This document shows, piece by piece, positions 2,341-54,705 of a stretch of DNA of 64,000 nt; position 1 is the stretch's first letter, and each line of letters begins with the position of its first letter. The notes under the pieces are model-generated. The model worked only from the letters and a program-made list of their open reading frames with translations. It was not told where the DNA came from and did not search any database. Source of the DNA: Arion vulgaris. Lineage: Eukaryota > Mollusca > Gastropoda > Stylommatophora > Arionidae. A program made the translations under genes and the position numbers. The stretch covers positions 61,248,152-61,312,151 of the forward strand of contig CM036755.1 of NCBI GenBank assembly GCA_020796225.1, written 5' to 3'.

Positions 2341-2372
2341 CAATTTAAATAGTATTTAATGTTGGGAACGTC

Positions 2373-3087
2373 TGTGTGTTGAAGGTACCCTCCGCCTGTG
2401 TGTTGAAGGTACCCTCCGTCAGTGTGTTGAAGGTACCCTCCGTCAGTGTGTTGAAGGTACCCTCCGTCAGTGTGTTGAAGGTACCCTCCGTCAGTGTGTT
2501 GAAGGTACCCTCCGTCAGTGTGTTGAAGGTACCCTCCGCCTGTGTGTTGAAGGTACCCTCCGCCAGTGTGTTGAAGGTACCCTCCGCCTGTGTGTTGAAG
2601 GTACCCTCCGTCAGTGTGTTGAAGGTACCCTCCGTCAGTGTGTTGAAGGTACCCTCCGTCAGTGTGTTGAAGGTACCCTCCGCCTGTGTGTTGAAGGTAC
2701 CCTCCGTCAGTGTGTTGAAGGTACCCTCCGCCTGTGTGTTGAAGGTACCCTCCGCCTGTGTGTTGAAGGTACCCTCCGTCTGTGTGTTGAAGGTACCCTC
2801 CGCCTGTGTGTTGAAGGTACCCTCCGCCTGTGTGTTGAAGGTACCCTCCGTCTGTGTGTTGAAGGTACCCTCCGCCTGTGTGTTGAAGGTACCCTCCGCC
2901 TGTGTGTTGAAGGTACCCTCCGCCTGTGTGTTGAAGGTACCCTCCGCCTGTGTGTTGAAGGTACCCTCCGCCTGTGTGTTGAAGGTACCCTCCGCCTGTG
3001 TGTTGAAGGTACCCTCCGTCAGTGTGTTGAAGGTACCCTCCGTCAGTGTGTTGAAGGTACCCTCCGTCAGTGTGTTGAAGGTACCCT
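2373..3087. repeat. 24-bp minisatellite, about 29 copies
   Basis: The unit is GTGTTGAAGGTACCCTCCGY plus CWGT, with units differing mainly at YCTGTGT versus TCAGTGT. Because 24 is divisible by three, both strands stay open (VLKVPSAC-type repeats on plus, EGTFNTQA-type repeats on minus) without being genes. The Kpn-like GGTACC is palindromic in every unit. Upstream is the Rep-K body, downstream a SINE-A. Confidence 0.95.
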
Positions 3088-3325
3088 CAAGGGAAGCAAA
3101 GAATAGTAACACTGCTCCTGTAAATCATGTCGTAGGAGGGCAATGATGTAGGGGCCTAAAAAACTACCCTAGTAAATAAAAAGCGTTGTAGAAATCGGAT
3201 GTGCTGGCTTACTTGTAGGTGCATAACTGACACGACGTGCAATCGCTCTTAGACCCAGATCGCATACACATAAAAAAGAGTGGTTAACAAGTGGTTGATA
3301 TGGAGCTTTTGAATAAGAAGTAGAA
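3088..3325 (+). mobile_element. SINE-A copy, 5' truncated
   Basis: It matches the family over AGGGAAGCAAAGAATAGTAA, the core (mutated here to CATGTCGTAGGAGG), CCTAGTAAATAAAAAGCG, AATCGGATGTGCTGG and GTGGTTAACAAGTGG. It lacks the first 25 bases and joins the minisatellite at CCCTC, so the array may have grown into the insertion boundary. Confidence 0.85.
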
Positions 3326-8430: not shown

Positions 8431-8756
8431 TACTAATCTACTGGAAAAAAAACCCACAAAATTCAAAAAAATGTTCACCATTTTTATTATTACATCGAAG
8501 ACTCTTGTCGGTGTTAATGAGTGCGTGCACTGTTGGTTGAACTTTCGTGTGTAAGACAGAGAGTAAAATAACCATATCTATTCACTTAAAGGTAATTATG
8601 TTGTACAAATTAATCAATATTTCTTTACCAGAGTCCGAGAAAATAATAAAGGGCCGTAACGAGTTTCAGAGTCTTGAAGGAAAGAAGTAAATTATCTTCA
8701 GTTCGTTCGATCTGCAGTTAACCGCTGCTGGAAATAGTTTTTGTAGGAAATATATA

Positions 8757-9585
8757 GAGGGTCTCTGTAGCGGAGAGGTTAGGTGCTCGCCATCTAGTGC
8801 CACAGGTAACGGGTTCGCTCCGTCGTGGAGAAATCTGGATATTTTTTCAGAGATGCCTGATCTCAGTGTACTATCGGAGTCGAACGATAAAGCTTAGGTC
8901 TCGTGTTAGATTTGAGCAAGTAAAATACACCTTGGCAGTTCAACAAAATTGATAAGAAACTGAACAGCTTTGAGAATAAATGTCTCCGAAAATTACTAAA
9001 AGTAAAATGGAGTGACTTCGTTTCGAACACCACAGTGAGAGATAGAACACAGCAACAACCCGTATCAAATATTATAAGGAAACGAAGGTGGAAATATTTA
9101 GGTCATGTTCTTAGATCAGACGAAAGGAAACTAAATCGACAAGTCCTTATCTGGTCACCAGTTGGGAAAAGAAAACGTGGAAGATATAAGACCACTCTTC
9201 GAAGAACAATCCTACAAGAAAGTAAACTATTGGAATGTAAAACCATACAAGATCTCCAACTGCTAGCAACGAACCGCATTACATGAAGATCTAAAACCTC
9301 TGCTCTATGTGCAGCCTTTAGCACGAAAAGAACAAATTAACTAACTAAGTTCAAAAGAGCAGGCTGGAAAGTTACTGCCGGGCAAAATTCATTAGAAGAA
9401 GATTAAACATAAAATCCCTACAAAATATCGTCACCACCTCCAAATTACATCGGGGACCGTCGCCAGTGCTTGGCAGCAAAGATCTTCATGTGCTAGAAAG
9501 AGATCGGAGCACACATGGTTACTCACCGAAGTGCAATGATAATGGTTATATCAATCAATCGATCAATGAAACGAAAATTCTATGA
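8757..9585 (+). mobile_element. tRNA-SINE S, split by a LINE-T insertion
   Basis: The head GTCTCTGTAGCGGAGAGG with GGGTTCGCTCC has the layout of pol III A and B boxes. The body has CTGATCTCAGTGTA, AGAGCAGGCTGGAAAG, AAATTACATCGGGGACC and AAAGAGATCGG, and the end is a TCAATCAATC simple repeat. Bases 8946-9343 are a foreign LINE fragment. The intact family is about 430-450 bp, long for a SINE. Confidence 0.8.
8946..9343 (+). mobile_element. LINE-T 3' fragment nested in SINE-S
   Basis: The frame reads 'KLNSFENKCLRKLLKVKWSD', 'RRWKYLGHVLRSDERKLN' and 'GKRKRGRYKTTLRRTILQ', followed by a stop and an AACTAACTAA tail. AGTTCAA stands on both sides (about 8938 and 9342), matching the uninterrupted SINE-S sequence CAGTTCAAAA. 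It is a 5'-truncated retrotransposed copy. Confidence 0.8.
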
Positions 9586-15929: not shown

Positions 15930-17605
15930 CTTCCTTTTGCAGAAACTTCTCTGTGACGGGATCATAAAATGTATTCTCAATTCTAACCTTACAGAAACTT
16001 CTCTGTGAAGGCATCGTAAAATGTATTCTCAATTCTAACCTTGCAGAAACTTCTCTGTGACGGATCATAAAATGTATTCTCAATTCTAACCTTGAAGAAA
16101 CTTCTCTGTGACGGCATCGTAAAATGTAGTCTCAATTCTAACCTTCAGAAACTTCTCTATGAAGACATCGTAAAATGTATTCTTCATTCTAACCTTGAAG
16201 AAACTTCTCTGTGACGGCATCGTAAAATGTAGTCTCAATTCTAACCTTGCAGAAACTTCTCTATGACGACATCGTAAAATGTATTCTTCATTCTAACCTT
16301 GCAGAAACTTCTCTGTGACGTCATCGTAAAATGTATTCTCAATTCTAACCTTGCAGAAACTTCTCTTGACGCATCGTAAAATGTATTCTCAATTCTAACC
16401 TTGCAGAAACTTCTCTGTGACGGCATTGTAAAATGTATTCTTAATTCTAACCTTGCAGAAACTTCTCTATGACGACATTGTAAAATGTATTCTTAATTCT
16501 AACCTTGCTCAAACTTCTCGTGACGCATTGTAAAATGTATTCTCAATTCTAACCTTGCAGAAACTTCTCTGTGACGGCATTGTAAAATGTATTCTTAATT
16601 CTAACCTTGCAGAAACTTCTCTGTGACGACATCGCAAAATGTATTCTTCATTCTAACCTTGCAGAAACTTCTCTGTGACGGCATTGTAAAATGTATTCTC
16701 AATTCTAACCTTGCAGAAACTTCTCTGTGACGGCATTGTAAAATGTATTCTCAATTCTAACCTTGCAGAAACTTCTCTGTGACGGCATTGTAAAATGTAT
16801 TCTCAATTCTAACCTTGCTCAAACTTCTCTGTGACGGCATTGTAAAATGTATTCTCAATTCTAACCTTGCAGAAACTTCTCTGTGACGGCATTGTAAAAT
16901 GTATTCTCAATTCTAACCTTGCTCAAACTTCTCTGTGACGGCATTGTAAAATGTATTCTTAATTCTAACCTTGCAGAAACTTCTCTATGACGACATTGTA
17001 AAATGTATTCTTAATTCTAACCTTGCTCAAACTTCTCTGTGACGGCATTGTAAAATGTATTCTCAATTCTAACCTTGCAGAAACTTCTCTGTGACGGCAT
17101 TGTAAAATGTATTCTCAATTCTAACCTTGCTCAAACTTCTCTGTGACGGCATTGTAAAATGTATTCTTAATTCTAACCTTGCAGAAACTTCTCTATGACG
17201 ACATTGTAAAATGTATTCTTAATTCTAACCTTGCTCAAACTTCTCTGTGACGGCATTGTAAAATGTATTCTTAATTCTAACCTTGCAGAAACTTCTCTGT
17301 GACGGCATTGTAAAATGTATTCTCAATTCTAACCTTGCAGAAACTTCTCTGTGACGACATCGTAAAATGTATTCTTCATTCTAACCTTGCAGAAACTTCT
17401 CTGTGACGGCATCGTAAAATGTATTCTTCATTCTAACCTTGCAGAAACTTCTCTGTGACGGCATTGTAAAATGTATTCTCAATTCTAACCTTGCAGAAAC
17501 TTCTCTGTGACGACATTGTAAAATGTATTCTCAATTCTAACCTTGCAGAAACTTCTCTGTGACGGCATTGTAAAATGTATTCTCAATTCTAACCTTGCTC
17601 AAAAG
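15930..17605. repeat. 52-bp minisatellite, about 32 copies, with 208-bp higher-order units
   Basis: The unit is CTTCTCTGTGACGGCATTGT, AAAATGTATTCTCAATTCTA, ACCTTGCAGAAA. Variant junctions (GCTCAAAC instead of GCAGAAAC) recur at about 16818, 16922, 17027, 17131 and 17235. Two consecutive four-unit blocks (about 16816-17023 and 17025-17231) look identical, so a 208-bp higher-order repeat is forming. The left edge is more degenerate. Confidence 0.95.
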
Positions 17606-22227: not shown

Positions 22228-22660
22228 GAGGATCATCTTCATCGCACATCAGACAGGTCCATAATTGCTCCAATCTTCTCCCAAACATGTATCTCAGTGT
22301 GTTTAGGCTAACATTTGAGGATCATCTTCATTGCACATCGGACAGGTCCATAATTGCTCCGATCTCCTCCCAATCATGTATCTCGGTGTGTTTAGGCTAA
22401 CAACTCTCGTTCTGTGTTGATTAATGTATCTACTCTTGTGGTTTTCCGTCTTGCCTCACCTATCGGTATGCATAACTTGCGCAACCGAGAGATAGAATAC
22501 CCTTTATCTTCGTCGTTTAAATCTTCAAAGCGTATGTTTTCTCTGACAGCGTTGATGATGTCGCTTCTGTCCATAGAAGACAATTTAATAGATTTTGTGT
22601 TGTAACAAGTTTGTATGTTAGCCTCGCAGGCCCAAACATTGGCGATGATTGACACTTTCG
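22228..22660 (-). mobile_element. LINE-H-like C-terminal fragment with 86-bp duplication
   Basis: An open frame of about 85 residues includes 'MDRSDIINAVRENIRFEDLN' and 'ISRLRKLCIPIGEARRKTTR'. It is followed by a segment whose other frame gives 'WTCPMCNEDDPQ', like 'WVCPECNDVS' of LINE-H. That last segment is tandemly duplicated (about 22228-22313 and 22314-22402). A second copy is at 30.7 kb. Confidence 0.6.
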
Positions 22661-22990
22661 GACGCGATTGTCCAACACGTGTAGGATGACGTCTTTGGCT
22701 AAGATCCTATAAAGTCCAATTAAAGAGCCGAAAATTGATCGTACGTGGGACAAGCCCATATGTCCCAAATGGTTGAGAATGGTCATAATCCGGAACGACC
22801 TCACATAGTCAGAAAGTATGCAAAGTGTAAATATGCTCTTAGACGAAGTTCTGAAAGCATAAATATACTGTGCAAAATGATCGTTAAAGAGGAATGAATA
22901 CACGAAGAATGGGAAGGTGTGAAGGACTGACTGTCAGCGAAACAGACTCAAAATATTGTCCGTAGGACAACATTTCGATGCCCTGCCTAC
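22661..22990 (-). other. Possible upstream continuation of the LINE-H-like element
   Basis: A minus frame of about 128 residues includes 'NHLGHMGLSHVRSI', which may be a decayed RNase H region, but no acidic active-site motifs are clear. Confidence 0.3.
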
Positions 22991-22994
22991 ACGT

Positions 22995-23095
22995 GTTTGA
23001 TAGGGCATACTAACCGAGGTGCAACGTTTAGTCGTTCTTGACTTCGGTCAAACATATCACAAAGAGTGATTAAATTGACCACAAAGAACGTTTAT
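22995..23095 (+). mobile_element. SINE-B 3' fragment
   Basis: GTGCAACGTTTAGTCGTTCT and CAAACATATCACAAAGAGTG then ATTAAATTGACC match the 3' part of SINE-B; the GAAG tail is gone. Confidence 0.7.
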
Positions 23096-24307: not shown

Positions 24308-24431
24308 TTCACAATTTCGTTAACATATAACCATAGGTTTATATGTAATTTTTATTCATGCTGCCATGTTTCTTGACAGAAAGTATATTTGGTTATTGTT
24401 ACATTTCTCACTGCCATATTTATTTCGTTTA

Positions 24432-24985
24432 GGGGATCTCTGTAGCGTAGAGATTAGGTGATCATCTCTCGTTCCAGGTTCGCTCCCTCCTGGAGCCATC
24501 GGAATATTTGTCCAGAGATCCCTGATCTCAGTGTAGGTGAAATCGAGTTCCTAGTCCTATCGGAGACGGACGATGAAACGTAGGTCAGGTGTTGAATTTC
24601 AGCATGTAAAAGAACCCTTAGCAGTTCAAAATCGAGAAGAGCAGGCTGTAAAGCCGCTGCAGGGAAAAATTCATTAGTAGAGATGCGCAACGTATAAACA
24701 ATCTTGGCAAAGATCTCACATATCACAAAGAGTGATTAAAATTGACCGTAAAGCACGAACGTAAAGAAGAAGAAGAAGAGAAGAAGATTAGTAGAGATTA
24801 AAAATAAGATTCCTACAAAGATATTTTCACCATCTTCAAAATTACATCGGGGACCCTCGTTGGTGCTACGGAGCTTTTGCACTGCAGCTGAGATCTTCAT
24901 GTGTAAGAAAGAGATCGGTGCACACATGATAACTCACTCAAGTGCAATTATGATGGTCCTATCAATCAATCAATCAATCTATTCT
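24432..24985 (+). mobile_element. tRNA-SINE S split by a truncated SINE-B
   Basis: It starts GGGGATCTCTGTAGCGTAGA with AGGTTCGCTCC, and includes TGATCTCAGTGTAGGTGAAA, AGAAGAGCAGGCTG and AAAATTACATCGGGGACC. It ends in CAATCAATCAATCAATC. The 24685-24786 stretch is foreign. This copy is the best for the family's full length. Confidence 0.88.
24685..24786 (+). mobile_element. 5'-truncated SINE-B (102 bp) with exact TSD
   Basis: ATTAGTAGAGAT flanks it at 24673-24684 and 24787-24798 (12 bp, exact). Only the 3' third of SINE-B is present, from GCGCAACGTATAAACAATCT to the GAAGAAG tail. Confidence 0.93.
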
Positions 24986-28289: not shown

Positions 28290-28850
28290 TGTTACTGTCG
28301 AACTTATTTCTAGTGTTGTTATCGCCATCATTAGTGCTGCCGTCGTTATCGTCATCATTAGTGCTGCCTTCGTTATTGCCATCATTAGTGCTGCCTTCGT
28401 TATCGCCATCATTAGTGCTGCCTTCGTTATCGCCATCATTAGTGCTGCCGTCGTTATCGCCATCATTAGTGCTGCCGTCGTTATCGCCATCATTTGTGCT
28501 GCCTTCGTTATCGCCATCATTAGTGCTGCCTTCGTTATCGCCATCATTAGTGCTGCCTTCGTTATCGCTATCATTAGTTATGCCGTCGTTATCGCCATCA
28601 TTAGTGCTGCCTTCGTTATCGCCAACATTAGTGCTGCCGTCGTTATCGCCATCATTAGTGCTGCCGTCGTTATCGCCATCATTAGTGCTGCCGTCGTTAT
28701 CGCCATCATTAGTGCTGCCTTCGTTATCGCCAACATTAGTGCTGCCGTCGTTATCGCCATCATTAGTGCTGCCTTCGTTATCGCCAACATTAGTGCTGCC
28801 GTCGTTATCGCCATCATTAGTGCTGCCGTCGTTATCGCCATCATTAGTAT
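28290..28850. repeat. 27-bp minisatellite, left part (about 20 copies)
   Basis: The unit is ATTAGTGCTGCCTTCGTTAT plus CGCCATC. It is open on both strands (nine-residue NDGDNDGST-type repeats on minus). Together with the trinucleotide tract it makes a 287-residue minus frame that is an artefact of repeats. The array resumes at 29846. Confidence 0.95.
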
Positions 28851-32589: not shown

Positions 32590-32805
32590 ACGACCTAACC
32601 CTGACTGTGTTACCAAGACTGTACCTGCCTGGAAGAAGAAGAAGAGGAAGATTTAGAAGACGGTGCGTGCAAGATGACATTGACGATCTGCGAATGACTG
32701 CTGCTGACGCTGGTCAACTTGAATAGAACAGAGAGTTTTTGAGGACTGCAATCATGGGAGCTAAGTTCCGGAAGGGACATTATACTTGATGAAGATGATG
32801 AGCTG
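32590..32805 (+). mobile_element. LINE-G 3' fragment
   Basis: Reads 'LYLPGRRRRGRFRRRCVQDD', 'IDDLRMTAADAGQLE', then 'GAKFRKGHYT', ending near CTTGATGAAGATGATG. Same C-terminal block as 3.6 kb. Confidence 0.7.
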
Positions 32806-33034: not shown

Positions 33035-33127
33035 ACGAAAATATTCATGTTCTCAGCGCAAACCACACATATCACAAAGAATGATTAACGTGGTTAAAAA
33101 AACAAACTCAAAGAAGAAGATGAAGAA
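33035..33127 (+). mobile_element. SINE-B 3' fragment
   Basis: CACATATCACAAAGAATGAT then AACGTGGTTAAAAAAACAAA and CTCAAAGAAGAAGATGAAG match the tail region of SINE-B. Confidence 0.6.
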
Positions 33128-33990: not shown

Positions 33991-34144
33991 CACGAAGTTT
34001 AGATCCTTCGAGGAGTCAAAGGCTCAAAAGTACCAATGGTACGAGGACTCAATGCAAGAGTTGCACGGACAACAGGTTTCCTGGAACGATCACACTTGGA
34101 GAATTTATGCTTCAGGTACCTCTGAAGTCGGCAAGACTGTCCGT

Positions 34145-34270
34145 ATGGTTGAGGGACACCTGTAAAAGTGTAATTTAGGCAAAAATCAGTCAAAAGCGCA
34201 ATACCAGGCGTCATGACTTTCGCCTGAATTAACAGCGGGCAATTGAGAAAAGAAGAAAGAAGATCATAGA
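34145..34270 (+). mobile_element. Rep-O copy, opposite orientation
   Basis: GGCAAAAATCAGTCAAAAGC, GCAATACCAGGCGTCATGAC and a GAAGAAAGAAGA tail are the reverse of the previous Rep-O. The two flank about 150 bp of unassigned sequence. Confidence 0.55.
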
Positions 34271-36115: not shown

Positions 36116-36790
36116 ATAGATGAAAACTAGACTTCATACAGTTGTGTTGAAACAAAATATGAAAACTAGACTTCATACAGTTATGTTGAAACAAAATACG
36201 AAAACTAGACTTCATACAGTTGTGTTGAAACAAAATATGAAAACTAGACTTCATACAGTTGTGTTGAAACAAAATACGAAAACTAGACTTCATACAGTTG
36301 TGTTGAAACAAAATACGAAAACTAGACTTCATACAGTTGTGTTGAAACAAAATACGAAAACTAGACTTCATACAGTTGTGTTGAAACAAAATACGAAAAC
36401 TAGACTTCATACAGTTGTGTTGAAACAAAATATGAAAACTAGACTTCATACAGTTATGTTGAAACAAAATACGAAAAATAGACTTAATACAGTTGTGTTG
36501 AAACAAAATATGAAAACTAGACTTCATACAGTTATGTTGAAACAAAATACGAAAACTAGACTTCATACAGTTGTGTTGAAACAAAATACGAAAACTAGAC
36601 TTCATACAGTTATGTTGAAACAAAATACGAAAACTAGACTTCATACAGTTGTGTTGAAACAAAATACGAAAACTAGACTTCATACAGTTGTGTTGAAACA
36701 AAATATGAAAACTAGACTTCATACAGTTGTGTTGAAACAAAATATGAAAACTAGACTTCATACAGTTGTGTTGAAACAAAATACGAAAAT
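36116..36790. repeat. 39-bp minisatellite, 17 copies
   Basis: The unit is GAAAACTAGACTTCATACAG, TTGTGTTGAAACAAAATAC. With 39 divisible by three, both strands stay open (13-residue repeats). Units vary only at a TACG/TATG site and a TTGT/TTAT site, so homogenisation is recent. Confidence 0.95.
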
Positions 36791-38744: not shown

Positions 38745-39200
38745 TTAAGTTGCCGGGGACCACGGGTTTTCATCATCATTACCAAATAGCTTGCCTGAGC
38801 TGGCCACCCCAACAGTCCTCCGAAATTTCTCTCTCTCATAGGCCAGATGTCTCGCCTCTGCTGCCGTCAAGTTCAAACCATCAGTTATATCCTGGATCCG
38901 TCTTCTCCGTGGTCTTGCTCTTTTCCTCTTTGACGGTATGTCTCCTTCCATGATGGTCTTCTCCAGACCTTCATGTCTTTTTATATGTTCAAAAGATCTC
39001 AATTTTCTCTTTCTTATTAGCAGTGTCAGCCAGTTTTTTTTTATTTTGATTTCTTTCTGGATAGATATATTTGTTCTCTTCTCTGTCCAAGAAATAAGGA
39101 AGACTCTTCTGTAACACTTATATTCGAAAGCACATACATGTTTTTCCACTTCATTATTAAATGTCCATGCTTCACACCCATAAGGAAAACCCAAGAGTAT
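38745..39200 (-). mobile_element. LINE-G 3' region, open for about 154 residues
   Basis: Reads 'GCEAWTFNNEVEKHVCAFEY', 'CYRRVFLISWTEKRTNISIQ', 'EHIKRHEGLEKTIMEGDIPS' and 'RRRRIQDITDGLNLTAAEAR', ending 'KFRRTVGVASSGKLF'. It lacks the RT palm, so it is a 5'-truncated copy, but it is little frameshifted and relatively young. Confidence 0.83.
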
Positions 39201-39204
39201 CTGT

Positions 39205-39335
39205 TTCAAACTCCGCGGTCAGTAATTTGAAAGCAAATTTGTTCCCGTGAATATTTACGAACGGTAAAAATAGACCTTACCTTTCAGAAATCAATGGAAA
39301 ACTACTTAAAGTAAAAGTGGTGTCTAGAGAATCAA
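39205..39335 (+). mobile_element. SINE-J, 5' truncated
   Basis: TTTCAAACTCCGCGGTCAGT, AAGCAAATTTGTTCCCGTGA and ATCAATGGAAAACTACTT match the SINE-J body. The A-box half is missing. LINE-E begins at its end. Confidence 0.7.
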
Positions 39336-50722: not shown

Positions 50723-50772
50723 ACATTTAAACACAAGTACAAAAAAGAAAAATTAAGATTATTGATCTTTTG

Positions 50773-50896
50773 GGTGTCTCTGTGAAGTAGAGGGTATGTG
50801 CTAACCTCTCGTGTAAAAAGGGATTCGGTTCGCTCCCTCGTAGAGCTATAGTAATATTTTTTCAGAGATATATGATCTTAGTGTAGGTGAGATCTC

Positions 50897-50936
<40 letters not shown>

Positions 50937-52222
50937 CGATCGTTCTTTTCGGCTATATTTATCATTCTAATTGTGATATATACACAGCCTTTGCCAAGAA
51001 CGTTTGTTTTACGTCACAACGTTTAGTACCACTTTGAGCTCTAGTGCTGATCCTTCGGTGAAGTGTTCAATTTCAATCAGCGTTTACTGGGCTCGTTCTC
51101 CGTTAGCCTTTTGCTGTCCACAGCCAAACCCACAAGGCAGCAGGTAGCTATTTTCTTTTAGGGTAGCGACACTTACACGACCTGCCCTCCTGGGTTGATG
51201 AATGCCATCTGCCAAGCTAACCCGTATTTTTATGGACTACTTGTTTTGTCTACCGTCCAGTTTTGTGAACGATTTACTCCGTAGACCTTTGATTGTCCCC
51301 AATCAAAGTACAAGGCAGCAGTAGTTCCCTGCGAGTGAAAACAAGCACTAGCTTCAACCTCTGCTGGGCCCTCCAGTCTTTTACACACCTGGGTGGTCCG
51401 CTCACCATCACATCTGCCAGCCACGACTGCCTCGACAGCCTCGTCTGTCTCGCCATCTGCGCCGTGCGTCTGTCCATCGTTAGGCCCACCCGTACATCGT
51501 CTACATACGTGCTCGCTCTGCCCTGGTGCCTGGCTCACCATCTCCGTCAGTTCTCAACGTGCTCACATTTGCTGCTAGGCAATCCGAAGCTTGGTCTTAA
51601 CTCGGGCCTCCACCCCTGAGATGGAGGTCCGAATTTTGCCCTATGTGGGACCAAGTCTCCTCGCCGGATGCACCTCTTATCCCATGTGTCTATTTGATGC
51701 CACCCCGAGTGGGCTCCGAGTTTCACCCCATGTTGGCAGACGACTCTTCTCGGATGTACCCTCATCCCTTGATGTCTATCCGTACACCTTTTGCCATCGG
51801 CCAGGAGAGACGAGCATTAATAGTCACTCTGGGATTCCGCTCGTCTGTGTTGGGAGTAGATACCATCTAACTTGACTACCTCTGCATCTCTATCTACAAC
51901 AGGGTAGATCTCCCTCGATCCCTGCCCTCTTACCCAGACCGGAACCAATGTCTGTTACCAGGGTCACCACGAGGAGGTATGGCAGGGTCTTGATTAGTGC
52001 CAGCTAACTAATCCTAGCGCATCGTTGTCCCCAAGCGCCTATGACCCCATAGGTGAGATCGAGTTTCTTGTTCTATCGGAGACAGACGATAAAACGTAGG
52101 TCCCGTGTTCAAGTTGAGCTCGTCAAAGAGAAAACTTGGCACTTCAAAAAAATCAAGAAGAGCAGGCTGGAAAGCCGCTGTCCGGGAAAAAAACACATTA
52201 GAAAAAGGTTTAAAATAAAATA
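50773..52222 (+). mobile_element. tRNA-SINE S split by a 1.15-kb insertion
   Basis: The 5' part (50773-50894) has TCTCTGTGAAGTAGAGGGTA, GGTTCGCTCCCTCG and GATCTTAGTGTAGGTGAGAT. The 3' part resumes at 52050 with AGGTGAGATCGAGTTTCTTG, then TATCGGAGACAGACGATAAA and AGAAGAGCAGGCTGGAAAGC. The order equals that of the 24.4 kb copy when 50895-52049 is removed. Confidence 0.85.
50895..52049 (-). mobile_element. GC-rich 1.15-kb non-autonomous retroelement with SINE-B-like tail
   Basis: TAGGTGAGATC flanks it exactly at 50884-50894 and 52050-52060. On the minus strand it begins GGGGTCATAGGCGCTTGGGG, continues through about 1 kb of GC-rich sequence, and ends with the SINE-B 3' region (AACGTTCTTGGCAAAGGCTG, TATATCACAATTAGAATGAT) plus a GA run. 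It has internal diverged duplications (ACAAGGCAGCAG at 51135 and 51310; CGGATGCACCTCTTATCC versus CGGATGTACCCTCATCCC). Frames of 70-110 residues overlap on both strands with no motif. Confidence 0.75.
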
Positions 52223-52451: not shown

Positions 52452-53519
52452 TCTTATCTTATTTTATCTTAACCACATTTGCCGTGAAGCGCCGTGGGAA
52501 GAGTTGGTTTCCTATCTTGTGCCAGGTGTGTTGCGCTTGACGTTGTCAGTCCATGCTTTCGCAGGGACTCTGAGATGTTATCTATCCATCGTGTTCTTGG
52601 TCTGCCTCGTGCTTTTCGCCCTGAGTGTCGATTATTATAGGCACGTGATGGTAGTAAATGTGGTTCCGTTCTCATTAGATGACCGAACCACTTTGCTTCT
52701 CGATGTTACTGTATGCATGGTATAGTACCAACGATGCTTCTGATATTCTCGTTTCTCACTCTATCTCGCCTTGTAACGTTGACAGCTTTTCGTAGACATC
52801 TCATTTCACATGTTGTAATCTTTCTTTCTTGTGTCTTAGTCAGGGGCCATGTTTAGCACTGATAGCAGAGAGTTGGAATAAATATGCAGTTTATCAGTTG
52901 TCGTTTGACTGTCATGTTAATGCTTGGATGTTTTAATAGTGGTGACAGTTGGTATGTCACTGCATTTGCCTTCTGGCATCTAGTCTCGATTTCTCTGTCC
53001 ATCTTTCCATCTGCTCTGAATATACTCCCGAGATATTTGAATTCTGGAATCTGCTGTATTTTGACATTATTCACGTGTATATTTAGTTGATCTACTTATT
53101 GTCATGACTTCTGTTTTGGAGGTATTAATTTTCATGTCATATTTTTCGCATGTCGATTGCAGTGCATTTACATGTTGTTGAAGTTTGTGTTCGTTGTTGT
53201 AAATTATACTCTGATCATCTGCAAAGAGTAGTTCGTTGATTAAATTGTAGTTATTATCGAGGTTGTTATCTGTCTTGGTTTCTTGCGTTATCCTGTCTAT
53301 GTATATATTGAAAAGTATAGGCGAAAGCACACATCCCTGCCCTACTCCTGATGATAATTCAAATTCGTTTGTCAGGCCCTCACTTGTTCGTACTAGGCTT
53401 GAGCATTTTTGGTATAGCACTCTAATATTGTCTAATAGTTGGTCCTGAATTCCATATTCACTTAGTATGGCCCATAGTTTGTTTCTGTTTATTCTATCAA
53501 AGGCTTTTTCTTGGTCTAT
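52452..53519 (-). mobile_element. LINE-F copy, 5' truncated, with 15-bp TSD
   Basis: Starting at 53519 it reads 'IDQEKAFDRINRNKLWAILS', 'LSSGVGQGCVLSPILFNIYI', 'LINELLFADDQSIIYNNE' (palm FADD), then 'IPEFKYLGSIFRADGKMDRE' after a frameshift near 53070, and 'GRPRTRWIDNISESLRKHGL' at the end. GAATTATTATTATTA flanks it (52437-52451, 53520-53534). The 3' tail is TAAGATAAAATAAGATAAGA. This is the longest RT stretch in the window. Confidence 0.9.
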
Positions 53520-53534
53520 GAATTATTATTATTA

Positions 53535-53994: not shown

Positions 53995-54705
53995 CGGTTG
54001 GCTATCTACATGTTATTTTGACATGTCTAAGTTATCAAATTCCTACATGTTATTGTGACATGTCTAAGTTACCAAATTCCTACATGATATTTTGACATGT
54101 CTAAGTTATCAAATTCCTACATGTTATTGTGACATGTCTAAGTTATCAAATTCCTACATGTTATTGTGACATGTCTAAGTTATCAAATTCCTACATGTTA
54201 TTGTGACATGTCTAAGTTATCAAATTCCTACATGTTATTGTGACATGTCTAAGTTATCAAATTCCTACATGTTATTGTGACATGTCTAAGTTCCAAATTC
54301 CTACATGTTATTGTGACATGTCTAAGTTATCAAATTCCTACATGTTATTGTGACATGTCTAAGTTATCAAATTCCTACATGTTATTGTGACATGTCTAAG
54401 TTCCAAATTCCTACATGTTATTGTGACATGTCTAAGTTATCAAATTCCTACATGTTATTGTGACATGTCTAAGTTCCAAATTCCTACATGTTATTGTGAC
54501 ATGTCTAAGTTACCAAATTCCTACCTGTTATTGTGACATGTCTAAGTTATCAAATTCCTACATGTTATTGTGACATGTCTAAGTTACCAAATTCCTACAT
54601 GTTATTGTGACATGTCTAAGTTATTAAATTCCTACATGTTATTGTGACATGTCTAAGTTATCAAATTCCTACATGTTATTGTGAAATGTCTAAGTTACTA
54701 AATTC
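53995..54705. repeat. 37-bp minisatellite, about 19 copies, palindromic core
   Basis: The unit is CAAATTCCTACATGTTATTG, TGACATGTCTAAGTTAT. ACATGT occurs twice, inverted around TATTGTG, so each unit can fold into a short hairpin. Several units lack two bases (AAGTTCCAAATT). Confidence 0.95.

Follow-up and report, generated by a model that had tools for sequence, protein, structure and literature searches.

A dispersed family of non-autonomous retroelements with a predicted HDV-like ribozyme at the 5′ end in the gastropod Arion vulgaris

The window analysed here, a stretch of 64,000 nucleotides from the Arion vulgaris genome (GenBank assembly GCA_020796225.1, contig CM036755.1, positions 61,248,152 to 61,312,151), contains an element on the minus strand that splits a copy of SINE-S (Table 1). 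An 11-nt direct repeat, TAGGTGAGATC, bounds positions 50895-52049, and its two copies are identical at 11 of 11 positions. The unoccupied target can be seen elsewhere in the window, where one uninterrupted SINE-S copy aligns with both flanks: the left flank matches 24428-24544 at 71% and the right flank matches 24534-24669 at 81%. These two alignments overlap by 11 nt, the length of the target-site duplication (TSD). A second SINE-S copy, at 8750-8957, covers the insertion site less exactly. An initial sequence-only reading of this DNA had proposed a TSD on both sides of the insert, at the point where SINE-S is interrupted, and the repeat and the empty site bear this out.

That reading also described the insert as GC-rich, unlike its surroundings, and as carrying diverged internal duplications, and both descriptions stand. 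The bin 51001-52000 has a GC content of 0.522, the highest of the 64 1-kb bins in the window (≤0.468 in the other 63). The duplications recur in other genomic copies, where element positions 283-339 cross-match 354-422, and 729-773 cross-match 907-952, at 68-85%. The longest stop-to-stop frame inside the element is 108 aa, and the two longest ORFs on its (minus) strand have no Pfam family match. Pfam RVT_1 falls in a different ORF, at 53070-53522. The window also contains large, well-conserved minisatellites at 2372-3088 (24 nt), 15937-17598 (52 nt), 28318-28848 (27 nt), 36122-36789 (39 nt) and 54006-54705 (37 nt).

Table 1. Features of the element, its predicted 5′ ribozyme and its target in the window.
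Feature	Position	Strand	Basis or detail
Whole element (family A)	50895..52048	-	TSD, empty site, genomic copies, head alignment; 5′ end (probable) at 52048
Target-site duplication, copy 1 (TAGGTGAGATC)	50884..50894	.	repeat comparison
Target-site duplication, copy 2 (TAGGTGAGATC)	52050..52060	.	repeat comparison
Target: left portion of split SINE-S copy	50768..50894	+	alignment to uninterrupted SINE-S
Target: right portion of split SINE-S copy	52050..52191	+	alignment to uninterrupted SINE-S
Uninterrupted SINE-S copy, empty site for comparison	24428..24669	+	alignment with both flanks
HDV-like ribozyme (predicted)	51920..52048	-	descriptor, Rfam, 57-head alignment
Ribozyme P1	52048-52043 with 51965-51960	-	GGGGTC/GACCCT, opens with G.U wobble
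Two hairpins in the long J1/2 strand	51992..52039 (52039-52016, 52013-51992)	-	89.7% and 93.4% of cells paired
Ribozyme P2	51987-51981 with 51926-51920	-	CCCTGCC/GGCAGGG
Ribozyme P3	51978-51976 with 51968-51966	-	ACC/GGT
Ribozyme L3	51975-51969	-	TCCTCGT, drz-agam-1-like, enclosed by P3
Ribozyme P1.1	from GG at 51959-51958	-	
Ribozyme P4	51954-51950 with 51939-51935	-	CAGAC/GTCTG; J4/2 next
J4/2 catalytic position	51933	-	G in window copy, C in 51/57 heads
Two diverged copies of GC-rich unit (51767-51711, 51696-51628)	51628..51767	-	cross-matches; unit present in families B and C too
Diverged duplication (51321-51277, 51143-51098)	51098..51321	-	cross-matches; 9-bp hairpin in upstream copy
3′ stem-loop, common to SINE-B and SINE-S	50941..51002	-	helices 51002-50996/50947-50941 and 50989-50984/50956-50951
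(GA)n 3′ tail	50895..50934	-	

At its minus-strand 3′ end the element is 71-76% identical to SINE-B copies across 66-70 nt and then runs into (GA)n, as first read. The predicted 3′ stem-loop is unusually stable (fold z = -4.07), and the SINE-B tail, which is ~25% different in sequence, has the same architecture (z = -3.47). In an alignment of eight tails from the window, the eighth being the piece at 33042-33107, kept as a tail and not as a LINE, 92.2% of the cells in the two main helices are paired, compared with 31-49% when the partners are slid. Five pairs are changed on both sides, a number reached by 4 of 500 shuffles, and the covariation score is reached by none. The predicted stem-loop pairing is conserved between the element’s 3′ end and the SINE tails. 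An exact 32-mer of this tail (A-type, after the family of the window element) occurs 84 + 88 times (172) in the genome; the control occurs 0 + 0 times. A SINE-S copy at 24683-24807 terminates in a SINE-B-class tail, a case of one tail serving two SINEs whose 5′ parts differ. Sequence words of cephalopod SINEs had no match in the window.

The genome assembly comprises 1.52 Gb in 3227 contigs. A search with the insert (query of 1144 bases) gave 57 rows from the 40 scored of 12,394 first-look candidates. Near-full-length rows number 18, counting that of the window itself, and 17 of them extend to query base 1143 or 1144, and thus to within one base of 52049. The proposal that the insert is a non-autonomous retroelement, which would fall if no other copies had the same two ends, is strengthened by this multi-copy occurrence with fixed ends. 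For comparison of copies, 39 stretches with flanks were taken from the genome, and a further search used the 145-nt 5′ head alone (3391 first-look candidates, 40 of them scored). The TSD search covered 43 copies in which the 5′ end could be recognised: 28 chosen by place and 15 from the head search, including the window copy. Heads joined to family C (below) and those whose 5′ start is damaged, L023 for instance, had been excluded in advance. The tail was also recognised in 37 of the 43, and these were scored, with L014, L016 and L020 among them representing one insertion copied by segmental duplication. An exact TSD of at least 10 nt occurs in 13 of the 37 copies versus 3 of 1332 permuted-flank pairs, and one of at least 8 nt in 15 copies versus 27 of 1332; the other 22 copies lack an exact TSD of at least 8 nt. 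Where present, the TSDs are 9-15 nt long. Numerous copies are 5′-truncated. All three hallmarks of target-primed reverse transcription that we tested (TSD, 3′ tail and 5′-truncated copies) occur in the family, and the TSDs and truncations are the marks that such a process would be expected to leave. A tandem segmental duplication at G000:C2:76771716-76792362 holds three family-A copies ~10 kb apart with a common 5′ flank.

The 5′ end of the element, which the sequence-only reading did not recognise as such, is predicted to be an HDV-like ribozyme that would be capable, in its intact form, of self-cleavage. P1 of the predicted ribozyme sits at the insertion boundary, and the helices follow the canonical order of the nested double pseudoknot (P1, P1.1, P2, P3, P4). 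A descriptor with a 7-bp P1, written after the candidate had been seen, found a single match on the two strands of the window, with P1 running from 52049 at the insertion boundary. In 30 random 64-kb sequences the same descriptor gave a mean of 0 matches at the composition of the window and 0.1 at the composition of the element. A second descriptor, laxer in P1, P2 and L3, gave 1 match elsewhere in the window; with P1 at position 2 and zero mismatches, it fits only 25 of 57 aligned heads.

Rfam searches of the element with E up to 10 returned two matches, the better being to drz-agam-1 at 17.6 bits, below the gathering score. We extended the Rfam test to sister heads at 12 loci, from a total of 59 heads (the 57 aligned plus L093 and L094). 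In 9 of the 12, drz-agam-1 matches at the head, 8 of these matches being below gathering, and 3 loci have no match. L093 alone exceeds the threshold (39.4 bits versus a gathering score of 37, E = 1.4e-4), and through it the family matches a curated covariance model, RF01787. HDV-like ribozymes at heads account for 14 of the 19 Rfam rows listed for these 12 loci; the other 5 are weak and lie elsewhere. Rfam gathering scores overlook most such heads, with 0 matches at that score in the whole window and 1 of the 12 sister heads above it. Minimum-energy folding, a method that cannot model pseudoknots, gave no unusual stability for the 5′-most 150 nt (z = 0.47).

Across the 57 aligned heads, which include the near-identical pairs L075/L076, L078/L079 and L080/L081 and the triplicated L014/L016/L020, the catalytic letter of J4/2 is C in 51, T in 4 (3 of which are the triplicated insertion), A in 1 and G in 1, the window copy. 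Given this G, which sets it apart from its family, the window copy probably cannot self-cleave and would be an inactive ribozyme. The first P1 pair is G.U in 54 of 57 heads, and the three P3 positions pair in 53 of 56, 56 of 57 and 55 of 57. In P2, one pair occurs as G-C in 39 heads and as A-T in 13. In an alignment of 37 heads (A2, with a 5′ misalignment in the L094 row), 92.6% of 1283 cells are paired versus 23.5-42.6% with the partners slid. Doubly changed cells number 16, compared with 8.0 in shuffled alignments and a count reached in 0 of 500 shuffles, 13 of the 16 coming from the P2 pair just mentioned. Covariation score and percentage of paired cells exceed shuffled values only slightly (reached by 19 and 17 of 500), pairs changed on both sides are not above them (4 versus a mean of 3.9), and pair types are below (30 versus 33.2). 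Covariation within the family is thus thin, and the case for the predicted ribozyme lies in a known fold with the active site in the right place, more than in covariation. In 17 full-length A copies, conservation is only a little higher in the ribozyme core (0.878) than across the remainder of the element (0.847). Genome-wide, a pattern of the core plus GGCTAAG occurs 640 + 741 times, giving 1381 exact cores that include fragments such as those of family D (below); the reversed pattern occurs 0 + 0 times.

The available text of PMC4908430 places the cut of HDV-like ribozymes at the first base of P1. The cut site predicted on this basis, the first P1 nucleotide, coincides with the insertion boundary. 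Element position 1 is T in 28 of the 57 heads, A in 11, C in 10 and G in 8, and position 2 is G in 55. Furthermore, of the 15 copies whose TSD is at least 8 nt long, 11 have position 1 within it. This variation and TSD sharing fit an RNA that starts at position 2, the first base of P1. The sequence-only reading had placed the bounds of the insert at 50895 and 52049. Both ends hold, except that 52049 itself is probably a -1 nucleotide, derived from the target or added, and the element proper would start at 52048. The 11-nt TSD of the window copy does not include 52049. Junction microhomology of such a kind is discussed for R2 in the accessible part of PMC3774820.

We read 30 head loci with 1.5-kb flanks, including the window copy and two places fetched before, and these reveal at least three arrangements downstream of the head. 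The window element typifies family A. In family B (L029, L031, L032, L034, L036 and partly L073) the middle is longer and the tail is as in A. Family C (L062, L065, L075, L076, L080, L081, L084, and L066 with a nested LINE) is ~1.8-1.9 kb long, and its 3′ end has no BLAST match to A and then passes into an AAG-type run. GC-rich repeat units are present in all three. We also observed 5′-truncated C-type pieces at window positions 34056-34263 and elsewhere, and an apparent hybrid at window positions 22631-23090 that combines a C-type body with a SINE-B/A-class tail. In a fourth group, family D (L092 and L095-L097), a head fragment without the 5′ strand of P1 lies within a repeated element that is 91-95% alike at four loci (G000:C1); L095 begins with TCAGTGGCGGCTCGTGG, which is hAT-like. 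The host element looks like a hAT-type DNA transposon. The family D core recurs among the places listed for the core plus GGCTAAG pattern.

The ribozyme head may be a mobile 5′ cassette that has been joined to at least two unrelated 3′ ends (A/B and C), probably by template jumps in the course of reverse transcription, a reading that we put forward tentatively and hold at slightly under an even chance. If it is right, different LINE machineries would be parasitised by elements with only a self-cutting head in common, which would have originated by capture of a ribozyme and not by internal deletion of one LINE. A fragment of the head would also have moved into an apparent DNA transposon.

The sequence-only reading offered, as one possibility, an internally deleted relative of the retrotransposon that had supplied the 3′ end of SINE-B, and suggested seeking a longer relative with reverse transcriptase (RT) between the GC-rich 5′ part and the tail. 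In the loci read, no RT was found between the head and an A- or C-type tail, the nested LINE of L066/L088 aside; these loci are a small number of the best-scoring among 3391 head and 4605 tail first-look candidates, so the absence is weak evidence. What survives of that picture is a non-autonomous element with fixed ends and a SINE-class tail; its descent from a LINE gained no RT-bearing copy in those loci. L066 was considered as a relative combining ribozyme, RT and RNase H, and was set aside, as L088 shows the RT stretch interrupting family C, which resumes after an overlap of ~10 nt. The interrupting sequence (L088, 755-2165) is a 5′-truncated LINE nested in family C, with RNase H (PF00075, E = 1.6e-13), an RT-like part recognised by eye, and an (ACTGAA)n end. 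LINE pieces also occur close to heads or tails at L027, L050, L053, L080 and L089, and their position and inspection of the sequence place them on the opposite strand or beyond the bounds of the element. L098, also a LINE copy, matches none of families A, B and C; on its other strand it carries a SINE-class tail piece (453-507).

Two LINE ORF ends in the window, at 32600-32800 (+) and 38748-39218 (-), are each followed by a tail-like piece, and were considered as the donor of the tail. This candidate was rejected, as the LINE stops before the tail. Of 2594 candidates, 40 places were scored, and in 39 of them, all but the window’s own, the match is confined to the query between position 27 and, at most, position 215 of 511. 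This puts the end of the LINE near 32800 and makes the tail piece an independent insertion. We assume the rejected LINE at 32600-32800 to be RTE-like. Positions 32600-32805 and 38748-39218 are the ends of a very abundant GAT-tailed LINE, whose C-terminal 157 aa gave 197,296 first-look candidates.

So, what kind of element is this? Very probably, the answer is a non-autonomous, SIDE-type (short internally deleted element) non-LTR retroelement, whose RNA would be released by its ribozyme and copied by the RT of a LINE. A transcript would pass through the element on the minus strand of the window, and the HDV-like ribozyme would cut 5′ of the first G of P1 (52048), freeing an RNA whose 5′ end is exactly defined. 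Some LINE may then supply an RT that recognises the 3′ stem-loop and (GA)n and, by target-primed reverse transcription, would copy this RNA at a nicked target site, leaving the TSD. A predicted 5′ ribozyme and a LINE-type 3′ end, without a long ORF, are the features of a SIDE, and the dispersed family appears to work like one; strict membership would need the parent LINE. Such a parent could still be in the genome, with the elements representing the degenerate 5′ and 3′ remains of one autonomous LINE that has the same head and tail. We regard this as evenly balanced. The head and tail resemble the 5′ and 3′ ends of LINEs, and the ribozyme SIDEs in the available portions of PMC3414825 and PMC4035085 descend from a LINE with the same 5′ end; the lack of RT between head and tail in the loci read, a small sample and weak evidence, speaks against it, and the one apparent relative (L066/L088) is a nested insertion.

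A relic ribozyme that now serves another role, for example as promoter or translation start, in an element that moves without self-cleavage, appears unlikely. Such a history would be in keeping with the slight excess of conservation in the core, and Pr77 of trypanosomatids is described, in the literature available in part, as both ribozyme and promoter. However, the catalytic C, the G.U wobble, P1.1 and P3 are kept across heads of A, B and C, and position 1 is shared with the target in most copies with a TSD, as expected if the RNA starts at G2. We consider it most improbable that the element is an ordinary long SINE, with a Pol III head (tRNA-, 5S- or 7SL-type) on a LINE tail. It does have the tail class of SINE-B and SINE-S, but neither of its Rfam matches (E up to 10) is to tRNA, 5S or 7SL, and its 5′ end fits a ribozyme. 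ARAGORN found no tRNA in the whole window, which says little, as the degenerate heads of SINE-B and SINE-S were missed as well. Finally, the absence of Pfam matches in the two longest element-strand ORFs would suit a host gene fragment or a chance GC-rich insertion with coincidental repeats, but the many copies with both ends and the TSDs in excess of the permuted control leave practically no room for either.

The SIDE-type retroelement that we favour shares parts with several known systems. SINE-B and SINE-S of the window have the same class of 3′ stem-loop, but with other, shorter 5′ parts (tRNA-like by eye), AAG-type tails and ~25% tail divergence. The drz-Agam ribozymes come from Anopheles, where they occur at the 5′ ends of RTE elements. 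The head resembles drz-agam-1 (RF01787) in its P3-L3-P3′ (ACC TCCTCGT GGT) and, in sister copies, in a CTAA-type J4/2, whereas its J1/2 is longer. RTE is cited among the clades with cleavage at the 5′ junction in the accessible part of PMC3774820.

Ribozyme-headed non-autonomous elements are already known, in the sources available in part, from Drosophila rDNA and from trypanosomatids. Among the titles and abstract openings surveyed, which took in few subscription papers, none concerns HDV-like ribozymes heading such dispersed animal elements, and the word ribozyme occurs 0 times in the available text of a gastropod non-LTR survey (PMC11203168). Like NARTc, RIME and SIDER of trypanosomatids, as presented in the accessible text of PMC4035085, the Arion elements are short, non-autonomous and dispersed, with a (here predicted) 5′ HDV-like ribozyme. 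The trypanosomatid ribozymes tested there are 78-126 nt long and the partner is of the L1Tc/ingi clade, whereas here J1/2 alone is ~55 nt and contains two hairpins. According to the available portions of PMC3414825, Drosophila R2 SIDEs and R2/R1 hybrid SIDEs have a 5′ HDV-like ribozyme, and the hybrids combine the R2 ribozyme with R1 3′ sequences and have TSDs. The Arion elements resemble the former in joining a 5′ HDV-like ribozyme to a LINE-type 3′ end, and the hybrids in placing one head on different 3′ ends, A/B and C. The R2/R1 SIDEs, as described there, lie in 28S rDNA and use known R2 or R1 machinery, whereas the Arion elements are dispersed at unrelated sites, with 1381 cores and no partner in the loci read. 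Several families with a common head but different tails, dispersed through a 1.5-Gb genome, provide a large natural sample for how a ribozyme may set the 5′ ends of retroelements and decay after insertion, and for the exchange of heads and tails between LINE systems.
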